This document shows positions 10,436 through 14,029 of a stretch of 64,000 bases of DNA, in pieces. Every line of letters begins with the position of its first letter. Within the stretch, counting starts at the first letter, position 1. A program made the translations under genes and the position numbers. The notes beneath the pieces are model-generated. The model was given only the letters and a program-made list of their open reading frames with translations, had not been told where the DNA came from and ran no database searches. This stretch comes from Paraflavitalea pollutisoli (lineage in GTDB: Bacteria > Bacteroidota > Bacteroidia > Chitinophagales > Chitinophagaceae), in the NCBI RefSeq assembly GCF_029360705.1, contig NZ_JARKMX010000005.1:1-64000 (forward strand). The letters run 5' to 3'.

Positions 10436-12331
10436 TTAGTTAGCCAAGATCAACTCTGGTCGCTTGATGAACTGGCGATTGTACTTAAACTTGACATTCG
10501 TATTGAATTCGAACCGCCACCGGTCGCCGAAGTAATTCTGTCGGGGAAAGAAAAAGGCCTTGAACTCCAGGGTACCGAAAATAAGACTCTCATTACGGCT
10601 ACGCAAGCCACCGCCAATACTACTATACAGATCACTTTTCTTCAACTCCTGTTTTTCCGGAGTCAGCAACGTCAGGTTGCCGAAGATGAAAGGAGCAAAA
10701 CGAAAGTTCAGGAACATCCAGGGGCTGAAAAACACCGACTCTCCTTTGAGCGTACTGCGGATCTCCCCATATACCCGTTTATTGTTGCGCAGCTCTGGCA
10801 GACCGAAAGGACTTTCCAGGAATAAGGGCTCATTCAATTCCTTATTCGCCTGCAAGGTAAAACCGGCACTAATGAAGGTGCGCTGCTTCCAGTTTTTACT
10901 CAGCGTCTTAAGATTGGAGAAATAGTCCAGGTTAAAAAGCACGTCCACATCCTCGATCACTTTTTTATTGAAGTAACCACCCACCCGCGCAGTATAGTTG
11001 AAATAATGCTCCTTCTCGGTAAAGAAGAAACGCTGAAAATCAATGCCTGCATAGGGCCGGTCGCGCCCCTGCGTTTGCGTATACCCAGCCGTAAACGACA
11101 AATCCATACCTTCGGGCACATCCTCATTACGCCCAAAACCGTAAACATACCTTACTTTATAAAAGTCCTGGCGGAAGATCGACAGCGCAGCCAGCGCGGC
11201 CGTCCGGTCGATATAATCATAATAATACTCCTGAGAAAACACATCCGGTACTTGCTGGAATTGCTTACGGAAAAACCGCATGCTTAATAAGGTCCGCAAA
11301 CGGTCGTTTTCGTTTTGCACATTACCCACTTTATAGGCGCCCGTATTCCAGCCTATCCAGGTATCGTAATTATAATATTCATATTGCGCATCGGTCTTGT
11401 ATACCGAGTCGCCGAGGTACATGTTTTCTGTCCGGTGATAAGCCACCTCCCCTGCGTAGGTAAATCGCAGATAGGGATGTACCAGCGGCCTGATCAATCG
11501 TGCATAATAGGTCATCTCTTCATTGCGGCCACTGTTGAACGCCCTATTAAAATTATCAAAGCCAATATAACCGTCGATAAAAGAACCCCCAATATTCCGT
11601 TTAATATACTCCGCACCGTAACCTACCCGCTCTTTTCGGCGCTGATCGTACAACAAGCTTCCCTGCAAACGGTCTCCCCATCCCCCAAGGTTGTCTTCCC
11701 GCAAGGTGCCGCTCACACTCGTAGAATTCCGCATCCTGAACGAGCCGCCGATCGACAATACATCTTTGGTAAAAATGGTAACATCCACCGAATCGAAACT
11801 TCTGTCGGAAGAGCGGATAACAATCCTTGCGTCCTGCATATAAGGTTGGTCACGCAAATGCCGCTCATTATCCGCCAGGAGGTAAGGAGAAACCTTATCA
11901 CCCACCTGGAAAAAAAGGTTATTCCGGATCACGTGGTTACGCGTCTTATGGTGAAAGCTATTTGCCAGGTTGGTCAGCTTGCTTTTAAACCGTCGGCTGG
12001 TATCCGCAATGGCAGTACCGAAATCGAGGACCTCTACATTTATGCTCCGGATCACCCGGCCATTGTAGATACTAAATAACAGGTCATTTCGGATGGGACC
12101 GGTAACCGGGTCTCCGGTAGGATTGTTCGATAGGAGGTTGCGGGCCAGCTTTCCAAATAAACCACGCTGCCGGAGAATAAAACTATCGAGCGAGGCCCGG
12201 CGGGCGGTATCCGTCTTTTTCAGCGATGCTTTATTGATGGTCGTATCAGGCTCCACCTGGGCCGGCAGTTCTATGACCAGCAGAAAACACAAAACACTCA
12301 GTAAAAAAAGGGACGACCGCATACACCGCAT
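10436..12331 (-). CDS. Outer-membrane beta-barrel protein with POTRA-like region
   Basis: This protein of about 631 aa has a signal peptide (MRCMRSSLFLLSVLCFLLV, cleaved near PAQ). A helical or disordered stretch comes next, then a POTRA-like segment near residues 140-205 (NNLFFQVGDKVSPYLLADNE, DARIVIRS, VDVTIFTKD). About 400 residues of amphipathic, aromatic-rich strands follow, typical of a 16-strand barrel. The layout resembles BamA/TamA-family or ShlB-like proteins of Bacteroidota, but I cannot assign a named member. The frame is open to 12358; starts at 12331 or 12322 both give a signal peptide, and 12331 is used. The C-terminus does not end in an aromatic residue as classical BamA does. 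Confidence 0.75.
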   Translation of the reverse strand: MRCMRSSLFLLSVLCFLLVIELPAQVEPDTTINKASLKKTDTARRASLDSFILRQRGLFGKLARNLLSNNPTGDPVTGPIRNDLLFSIYNGRVIRSINVEVLDFGTAIADTSRRFKSKLTNLANSFHHKTRNHVIRNNLFFQVGDKVSPYLLADNERHLRDQPYMQDARIVIRSSDRSFDSVDVTIFTKDVLSIGGSFRMRNSTSVSGTLREDNLGGWGDRLQGSLLYDQRRKERVGYGAEYIKRNIGGSFIDGYIGFDNFNRAFNSGRNEEMTYYARLIRPLVHPYLRFTYAGEVAYHRTENMYLGDSVYKTDAQYEYYNYDTWIGWNTGAYKVGNVQNENDRLRTLLSMRFFRKQFQQVPDVFSQEYYYDYIDRTAALAALSIFRQDFYKVRYVYGFGRNEDVPEGMDLSFTAGYTQTQGRDRPYAGIDFQRFFFTEKEHYFNYTARVGGYFNKKVIEDVDVLFNLDYFSNLKTLSKNWKQRTFISAGFTLQANKELNEPLFLESPFGLPELRNNKRVYGEIRSTLKGESVFFSPWMFLNFRFAPFIFGNLTLLTPEKQELKKSDLYSSIGGGLRSRNESLIFGTLEFKAFFFPRQNYFGDRWRFEFNTNVKFKYNRQFIKRPELILAN

Positions 12332-12638
12332 AGCTTTCCGCCTGATTATGAATAGCAAAATAAGCTTTTACCAAGAATACTTTGCAAAAGAGGTACCTCA
12401 CCCAAAACTACCTGAAACGCCCGCCAGGCACCACACTACCCATAAACCCCTAAAACGCAGGCCAGGCCTCGATCAGGCTATACAGTCAGCCCGGTTGCCG
12501 ACCCTTAACATCCGGTAAATGAAATGTTAAGTTTCCACCCATCCGATGTCCAAAACAGTTTATAGGCCGTTTGCCCCCATTCATTAAACAAATAGCACAG
12601 TTTACTCAATAGCACTTTTCAGCAGCCGCCAGCCACAT
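12332..12638. other. Gene-free region upstream of the candidate RNA
   Basis: No credible gene is seen. It holds the upstream region of the barrel gene (minus strand) and leads into the promoter of the candidate structured RNA (plus strand). Confidence 0.5.
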
Positions 12639-12646
12639 TAGTTTTG
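12639..12646 (+). promoter_or_regulatory. -7 promoter box of the candidate structured RNA
   Basis: TAGTTTTG matches TAnnTTTG exactly. The predicted transcription start, a few nt downstream (about 12650-12653), coincides with the first nucleotide of the 5' helix of the candidate RNA. The -33 region has only a weak TTTTC at 12616-12620. Confidence 0.5.
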
Positions 12647-12650
12647 TGTC

Positions 12651-13048
12651 ATCAAAGGAGCAAACGACCAGCAGACCTTATCGTAATTGAACCTTGAGAC
12701 TATGAATTTGATCCTTTGATTGGGAAGGCGTACCGTAGCTTATCACAAAGAGCAAAGCGTACCCCCACAAAAGAAAGATGTTGTAACGACCCTTACAACA
12801 ACCAATCAACAACCGGGACGGTGTGTAGCAGGTATGTGAACAGTATGGCCAGTAGACAACAAATTATTTAGGATTGCCGGAAAGCAGCGTGTGAAGGATG
12901 ACAGGTTCCAGGCAGTCGCTGAAAAAAAGCAAAGCAGTGTGTTGACGTCCCGGTTTCTTTAAACTTCGGTTACAGTTTTTCAAAGGAATATACATATTGG
13001 ATGGTTTACCCAACTCCCTTTTTGTCTAAAAAGGGAGTCGTTGTTTTT
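12651..13048 (+). ncRNA. Candidate structured non-coding RNA, about 400 nt
   Basis: No ORF of note lies here, but several perfect helices do. ATCAAAGGA (12651-12659) pairs with TCCTTTGAT (12712-12720). TTGATTGG (12716-12723) pairs with CCAATCAA (12802-12809). TGTTGTAA-CGACCC-TTACAACA (12779-12800) is a local hairpin inside the latter. AACCGGGACG (12811-12820) pairs with CGTCCCGGTT (12946-12955) and encloses CAGCG/CGCTG (12885-12889, 12917-12921). The first two helices share five bases, so they compete. A consensus -7 box precedes it and a strong terminator ends it. I looked for the conserved cores of RNase P RNA, tmRNA and SRP RNA and did not see them. Confidence 0.6.
13013..13048 (+). terminator. 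Rho-independent terminator of the candidate RNA
   Basis: A perfect 11-bp stem ACTCCCTTTTT-GTCT-AAAAAGGGAGT (13013-13038) is followed by a T-rich tract to 13048. It lies 100 nt before the yihY-like gene, which therefore needs its own promoter. Confidence 0.9.
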
Positions 13049-13147
13049 AGACCATTCTAATCCGCACAAACAATCCCCTTCGGGCAATTTGAGTACCTTC
13101 AGGCTGGCTTTGGATCGCAAAATCGCCAGGCCCAAAAACTATAGCCC

Positions 13148-14029
13148 ATGCCTTCGTACAAGGGAGCCATTACTTTGGCGGGATTGATGAGAGCAGCTTT
13201 CCGGGAGTTCCAAAAGAACGATCCGTTGCGGATAGCTGCGGCCACTGCCTTTTTCACCACTTTTGCCTTGCCGGCCATCGTCATTATTCTCATCCAGATC
13301 TTTGGCCTGATAGCAGGTCGCAGAGCCATCGGGCAGCAGCTATTTACCGGTCTCACCGATATTTTAGGGCCCAATGCCGTGGAAGAAATGCGGGCTACCC
13401 TCCGCAATGTGCGGCAGCTGGCGCAGGCCTGGTACATCGCCGCAGGCGTATTCCTGTTCCTGATATTCGTATCTACGACCCTGTTCAAAGTGATCCGCGA
13501 CACACTCAACCAGCTTTGGGACATCCGGTTAAAAGACAGTACAGGATTTCTTTTCCAGTTGCGCCAAAGGGGCCGCTCCTTCCTCATCATTTTACTGGCC
13601 GGAATGTTGTTCCTCACTGTCCTCCTGGCGGAAGGATTACTAACCTTGCTGCCTGAAAAAGCCGATCTGCTCAACCGCCTGCTCAAGCAGATCATTTCCG
13701 TCATTGCTGCCACAGCCTGGTTTACCCTGGTATTCAAATACATTTCCGACGGCTATACCAACTGGCGAACCACCCTCGCAGGCGCCTTCTTTACCGGTCT
13801 GTTGTTTACAATTGGGAAAATGATCCTGGGTGTACTACTGTCCTACAGCACGATTAAGAATATCTATGCCACCTCTACGTCTTTCGTATTGTTACTGTTA
13901 TTCGTCTTCTACTGTTCGTTTATGTTCTATTATGGCGCCTGCTTTTTGAAAGTATGGGCATCGCACAAACAGCATCCCATAACACCGCACCGGCATGCAA
14001 TCAGGTACAAATTGTCGATGGTGGACTAA
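13148..14029 (+). CDS. YihY/BrkB family membrane protein
   Basis: This 293-aa protein of the YihY (formerly ribonuclease BN) family has six membrane helices. The N-terminal AAATAFFTTFALPAIVIILI block and the later ISDGYTNWRTTLAGAFFTG loop are family hallmarks. It acts in the inner membrane; the old RNase BN assignment is not supported for this family, and transport or envelope roles have been proposed. The start ATG at 13148 gives the normal short cytoplasmic N-terminus. It converges with the bestrophin gene, 27 nt between stop codons, without an obvious strong terminator. Confidence 0.85.
   Translation: MPSYKGAITLAGLMRAAFREFQKNDPLRIAAATAFFTTFALPAIVIILIQIFGLIAGRRAIGQQLFTGLTDILGPNAVEEMRATLRNVRQLAQAWYIAAGVFLFLIFVSTTLFKVIRDTLNQLWDIRLKDSTGFLFQLRQRGRSFLIILLAGMLFLTVLLAEGLLTLLPEKADLLNRLLKQIISVIAATAWFTLVFKYISDGYTNWRTTLAGAFFTGLLFTIGKMILGVLLSYSTIKNIYATSTSFVLLLLFVFYCSFMFYYGACFLKVWASHKQHPITPHRHAIRYKLSMVD

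Follow-up and report, generated by a model that had tools for sequence, protein, structure and literature searches.

The closest described systems to the locus reported here are bacterial noncoding RNAs that stand free of any messenger. In Flavobacterium psychrophilum, Rfp18 is described, in the available text of PMC9723704, as an independent sRNA that is needed for precise protease expression, its pairing being predicted to involve a stem-loop, and promoters of the TAnnTTTG type are given there as the main kind in that species. For F. johnsoniae the available text of PMC6847099 gives the promoter consensus TAnnTTTG, numbered -12 to -5, and a G at -10 is almost missing from the -7 boxes that it covers. 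Bacteroidales-1, Flavo-1 and Bacteroides-1 represent a further group and are known from the same kind of evidence as is presented below, namely a conserved fold without a function (PMC2864571, in the text available). Longer established amongst the free-standing classes are the 6S and 6S-Flavo RNAs and RNase P RNA of type A (RF00010), the latter also being the product of an independent gene and, with a model of 367 positions, similar in length to the RNA described here.

Positions 12651 to 13048 (+ strand) of a 64,000-nucleotide stretch of Paraflavitalea pollutisoli DNA (contig NZ_JARKMX010000005.1; hereafter the window) very probably constitute a genuine, uncatalogued noncoding RNA gene of about 390 nt, as judged from comparison with related genomes. 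No Rfam family matched this region at its gathering score, and even at E ≤10 the interval 12350-13200 gave only five matches, all sub-threshold, the best being PyrR at 23.6 of 54 bits. The covariance models of RNase P did not match at the locus, the RNase P RNA of this genome (RF00010, 223.7 bits) being found elsewhere, nor was there a match there to tmRNA by ARAGORN or Rfam or to SRP RNA by Rfam, in agreement with a preliminary description of the window in which the cores of these three RNAs had been judged absent by eye. The 6S-Flavo (RF01685) and 6S (RF00013) models, which are 108 and 187 positions long, matched neither the RNA at E ≤10 nor the genome at E ≤1; the silence of RF01685 says little, since this model gave no match in the Bacteroides genome of the control set either. 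Those motifs of the comparative screen that have Rfam models likewise gave no match at the RNA. The resemblance to Rfp18-type sRNAs is one of kind: these also belong to Bacteroidota, are conserved within a genus and are predicted to be structured (PMC9723704, in the text available), whereas a stem-loop is the predicted pairing element of Rfp18 and the candidate active part here is a tail preceding the terminator. We found no title or abstract on this RNA in the literature, which does not disprove that one exists. The RNA is a new orphan family of a known kind, without an Rfam family. Elsewhere in the window Rfam gave a single hit, on the - strand at 1-126, where part of a group II intron (RF02001, 100.1 bits) is cut by the window edge.

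The unit that has been kept in related species spans about 500 bp and consists of 110 bp of upstream sequence followed by a putative transcript of about 390 nt, running on the + strand from 12651 to 13038 or 13048, that is, through the U-rich tract past the terminator stem. The upstream part (12541-12650), which lies between the RNA and a divergent gene encoding a 640-aa protein, shows 71.0% mean pairwise identity across five species, with 55 of 110 columns invariant, and from -300 to -110 the identity is only 29.1%. Within it, at 12639-12646, lies a -7 promoter box of the TAnnTTTG type, TAGTTTTG, which reads TAG[T/C]TTTG in all five species. Since the box occupies these positions, the F. johnsoniae numbering (PMC6847099, in the text available) would place +1 at 12651, which is the first base of helix P1; the exact -7 box noted earlier at the 5' end of the first helix is therefore present and conserved. 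Unlike the F. johnsoniae boxes covered by that text, the box has a G at -10 in 5/5 species (PMC6847099), and no clear copy of a -33 TTTG was seen at this promoter. A box kept in all five species and a conserved 110 bp upstream are what would be expected of an RNA gene with a promoter of its own. At the other end, an intrinsic terminator (13013-13048) comprises a perfect 11-bp stem (13013-13023/13028-13038), as previously reported, with the loop GTCT and a U-rich tract; the stem is retained in the relatives, and in G001 and G004 a U-A pair has become C-G, so that the terminator too appears to be the gene's own. That 12651 to 13048 is transcribed we infer from the conserved promoter box and terminator.

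The segment 12541-12620 forms a block kept in the five species that holds CTTATAG-like and CTCAATA motifs and, in three of them, the dyad GGCAATTTGCC. A regulator of the RNA, or else of the divergent gene, could bind in this block.

Helix P1 pairs the arm beginning at +1 (12651-12664) with 12707-12720, and in the window has a perfect 9-bp core, 12651-12659/12712-12720. In the hand register it is paired in 5/5 species with 7 to 13 pairs, one of which has changed on both sides (U-A in the window, A-U in G003). Hairpin P2 (12779-12800) is formed by TGTTGTAA and TTACAACA, 8 bp at 12779-12786/12793-12800; this is the local hairpin of the preliminary description, and it is kept in four of the five species, G001 having GCTATAA/TTATAGC with two pairs changed on both sides, and no equivalent being recognised in G004. 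P3 joins AACCGGGACG at 12811-12820 to CGTCCCGGTT at 12946-12955 through 10 perfect base pairs, and in the hand register all 10 are formed in every species, one pair having changed on both sides. Enclosed by P3 is P4, which was absent from the earlier list: its arms GATTGCC (12872-12878) and GGCAGTC (12911-12917) form 6 to 8 pairs in 5/5 species in the hand register while both vary in sequence (GATTGCC/GGCAGTC, GATTACGG/CCGTAATC, GGCGGA/TCCGCC), and two pairs have changed on both sides with G002, which has a different register, excluded. The three helices of 8-10 bp between distant segments that had been proposed are all present in the window, and P1 and P3 are conserved; the third, an 8-bp pairing of 12716-12723 with 12802-12809, has no counterpart in the relatives, where the longest complement is 3, 3, 0 and 4 bp (G003, G002, G001 and G004). 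We have rejected it as a real structure; it probably arose by chance, since it shares bases 12716-12720 with P1 and is absent from the other four species.

The window RNA has two copies of CGTACC at 12729-12763; in G004 the motif likewise occupies two neighbouring positions, and G002 has CGTGCC and CGTACC. These copies could pair with GGTTACAG in the tail, and a long-range pairing of CGUACC with GGUUACAG that appeared in the alifold output was left uncounted.

The statistical case for the fold rests on the relatives, since the sequence taken singly folds with unremarkable energy: z is -1.04, 11 of 100 shuffles are as good, and neither strand stands apart (-1.04 and -1.18). Perfect helices of 8 bp and longer do number six in the 398 nt, whereas 100 dinucleotide shuffles averaged 1.14 and never reached six. 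When the five RNAs were aligned block by block, alifold gave an energy of -128.8, lower than in any of 100 column shuffles (mean -104.5, sd 6.7); its covariation term, at 87.3, did not differ from the shuffled value of 88.0 (sd 3.9), and the test therefore supports shared pairing and not covariation. The preliminary description had proposed looking in relatives for conservation of the helices with compensatory changes, and both are found: the terminator stem persists, as do helices P1 to P4 (P2 in four of the five species), and of the 49 pairs that these comprise in the hand register 7 have changed on both sides amongst five sequences, a count that omits G004 from P2 and G002 from P4. The hand register was used because P4 of G001, G002 or G004 is out of place in the MAFFT and fitted alignments; since its arms were placed by choosing for pairing, the share of paired cells is on its own no evidence. 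In a formal count restricted to the P3/P4 domain, 98.8% of 80 cells were paired against 86.6% after shuffling and 5 of 17 pairs had changed on both sides against 1.4 (1 of 500 shuffles as high), with pairing collapsing once the partners were slid. The alignment used was structure-fitted and has P4 of G004 and G002 off the hand register, so that its P4 figures are to be discounted; its P3 figures match the hand register.

Conservation within the RNA is strongest outside the folded body. The stretch that follows P3, up to and including the terminator stem, has a mean pairwise identity of 85.3%, with 66 of 88 columns invariant in the five species, which makes the tail and terminator the highest of the RNA segments, against 60.3% for the P3 domain, 50.3% for the 5' domain and 36.2% for the 100 bp past the terminator. 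The tail, GGTTACAG...CAAAGGA...TATTGGATGGTTTACCCA, occupies 12968-13012 (45 nt) and is the proposed active segment; small indels occur around CAAAGGA, and its predicted accessibility is middling (mean unpaired 0.34 to 0.56). One 17-nt core of the tail, used as a probe with up to 3 mismatches in 5 genomes, has 158 near-complements, the five RNA loci counted in, against 88 for the reversed control, an excess that may be compositional since this control does not keep dinucleotides. Twenty sites were inspected, namely 12 two-mismatch sites among the matches listed and 8 chosen three-mismatch sites in the window genome: 18 lie within ORFs (11 antisense, 7 sense) and 2 between ORFs, and of the 7 on the sense strand one is near an ORF start (41 nt away). 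None of these 20 of the 158 near-complements of the one probe was convincing as an mRNA target near a start site.

The RNA is present in 5/5 genomes of the genus that were examined, including Paraflavitalea sp. CAU 1676 and a Niastella MAG. Amongst 59 genomes searched by BLASTN, the window's own included, all four others of the genus match (E ≤8.1e-22) and the 54 outside it contain no match with E under 1e-3. In G003 and G002 BLASTN covers the region from end to end; in G001 and G004 it covers only the last 70 to 90 nt or so, and the rest of the RNA was recognised there by alignment and models; a model built from two species (R2) finds the other three at E 3.4e-12, 1.2e-7 and 1.1e-5. In 394 genomes of the family, model R1 (tail and terminator) recovers the five genus members at E 6.0e-24 or better and 21 further genomes at E 4.8e-5 to 0.0099. 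These 21 we rejected as homologues, their loci being unrelated terminator hairpins by eye, judged on one locus per genome with a second match in G268 outside that judgement; three of the loci bear a different conserved element. The core model R3, made from the P3 domain of the five sequences on alignment A7, in which P4 is misplaced in two rows, matched 5 of the 394, all of them in the genus, and none of the other 389. Across 396 genomes of the order, R1 at E ≤1e-4 found two genus members and G078, the last of which was judged unrelated. Searches over more than 40 genomes used stricter filters by which weak matches are lost, so the RNA is genus-restricted within the genomes searched, with diverged forms past the filters possible. 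The plasmids searched contained no match to the RNA, and viral contigs none to one 21-nt exact pattern. Upstream of the homologue of the neighbouring gene in G006 (60% identity), GGATGG was the lone probe motif found, without TAnnTTTG; none of three probes was found at the yihY relative of Flavitalea sp. BT771, and R2 at E ≤1 matched neither of these two loci. The proposal of an independent, possibly lineage-specific noncoding RNA is supported by the conserved helices, the limitation to the genus and the lack of an Rfam match.

Directly 5' of a terminator hairpin, ACTAATCAGnnCCTTAACCnAAGTCCC was observed with at most one mismatch in 31 of 294 family genomes, representing 17 of 101 genera, and in none of the five genomes of the window's genus. 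In several of 13 loci (L048, L049, L068 and L095-L104; for example L049, on the - strand, 1547 bases from the 5' end) it lies close behind the end of an ORF for what is seemingly the same protein, which we take to be peptidase-like, and possibly it is a 3'-UTR element or a 3'-UTR-derived RNA. Three of these loci (L048, L049 and L068) gave no Rfam match. In two genomes of one genus (G197 and G350; loci L054 and L060), ATGGATGGGTTAGTAAAT stands just 5' of a terminator hairpin, and the R1 loci of these two genomes have a stretch, GGATGGGTTAGTAAAT, in common.

The divergent gene (10436-12358, - strand) adjoins the RNA in 5/5 species. Its 640-aa product has no Pfam match, a weak BamA-like stretch (E 2e-4) being far under the curated cut-off, and homologues occur in 22 of the 59 genomes (the window's own being one of the 59), the G002 copy being split in two. 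On the other side yihY, on the same strand as the RNA, adjoins it in four species and in the window begins about 100 nt past the terminator; a TA[C/T]CTTCA box kept before yihY in these four is possibly its own promoter. In G004, ORFs of 246, 272, 1057 and 273 codons stand between the RNA and yihY, the 273-codon ORF being the one that follows the RNA. The longest + strand ORFs of the five RNAs are 51, 49, 37, 38 and 50 codons, and amongst the four longest per species none shared in place, length and sequence was seen by eye, in agreement with the earlier statement that the RNA has no coding frame. On the - strand some ORFs have the start MGKPSNMY in common in three species, over near-invariant DNA, and then diverge with a frame shift.

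Our best reading is that of a genus-restricted regulatory RNA acting through its tail, presumably in trans, since the next gene on the RNA's own strand is not always the same. RNA polymerase carrying the Bacteroidota housekeeping sigma factor would start at 12651 and stop at the terminator near 13048. The folded body, made up of P1, P2 and the domain closed by P3 with P4 inside it, would be kept for its shape, and the near-invariant 45 nt before the terminator would be the acting part, most likely by base-pairing with mRNAs. That the tail and not the folded body is most conserved is as expected of a regulatory RNA acting in this way. We regard this reading, an independent gene with a body kept for shape and a tail that acts, likely through mRNA pairing, as reasonably probable on the present comparisons.

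Less probable, in our view, but the most substantial of the alternatives, is an RNA that binds and holds a protein, with the tail as the protein site and not a pairing seed. The 6S and CsrB-type RNAs act by binding and holding a protein. The tail is conserved as sequence across 45 nt, longer than the usual pairing seed, and all five species have one CAAAGG in the tail and another at the 5' end, as might befit a scaffold; the predicted folds, however, contain neither a CsrB-like array of short repeated motifs nor a long 6S-like hairpin. The lack of RF00013 and RF01685 matches in the genome, which leaves a 6S-type role not visibly filled, is a weak argument as far as RF01685 is concerned, given the silence of that model in the control genome. 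The two copies of CAAAGG also permit a two-state riboregulator, in which both would be rivals for one and the same CCUU(U) arm: with P1 formed, the near-invariant tail would be free to act, and with the tail held by the arm, the 5' end would be free instead, the state being set by a protein, by a partner RNA or by the order of transcription. In the window, 12712-12719 of the 3' arm of P1 can pair perfectly with 12980-12987 of the tail (8 bp), as an alternative to P1. Across the window, G003, G002, G001 and G004, this arm can form 9, 9, 11, 7 and 10 bp with the 5' end and 8, 7, 7, 6 and 7 bp with the tail. Ensemble folding favours P1 in G003, G002 and G004 (0.97, 0.99 and 0.88) and the tail pairing in G001 (0.95), and in the window gives P1 0.40 against 0.49 for the tail pairing, the 5' end also pairing with another CCTT (0.56). 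We consider such a switch rather unlikely.

The alternatives that deny the RNA a gene or a role of its own we hold to be far more doubtful. As a cis-acting leader of yihY, the 400 nt would sense something and the terminator would serve as an attenuator, and the shared strand, the short distance and the adjacency in 4/5 species all suit this; a leader role is nevertheless improbable, because G004 keeps the RNA and its divergent neighbour with four ORFs before yihY and a different ORF following, and the 100 bp past the terminator are poorly conserved over all five species, save for the TA[C/T]CTTCA box. Scarcely any more credible is the view that the RNA encodes a short peptide, whether as a plain messenger or in a dual function: each of the five sequences does have short ORFs, but a comparison of the four longest from each species shows them to differ in place, length and sequence, and where conservation is strongest it holds base by base, with small indels. 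The most improbable explanation is that chance inverted repeats in an ordinary intergenic region have been mistaken for a fold. The modest z of the single sequence, the unconserved helix 12716-12723/12802-12809 and a covariation term no different from that of the shuffles would all be compatible with chance, but conservation drops sharply before -110 and past the terminator while pairing is kept between, and the chance reading is largely refuted by the relatives.

As long as it has no known target, the RNA counts among the many orphan candidates. Should it prove to regulate in trans, as the tail-based reading would have it, it would be a well-delimited gene with a placed promoter box, placed helices and a 45-nt candidate active segment, and to our knowledge few such RNAs have been studied in this group of soil bacteria. 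Since the RNA is limited to one genus and its neighbouring gene is also found without it, the RNA gene may have been gained recently, or else lost elsewhere.
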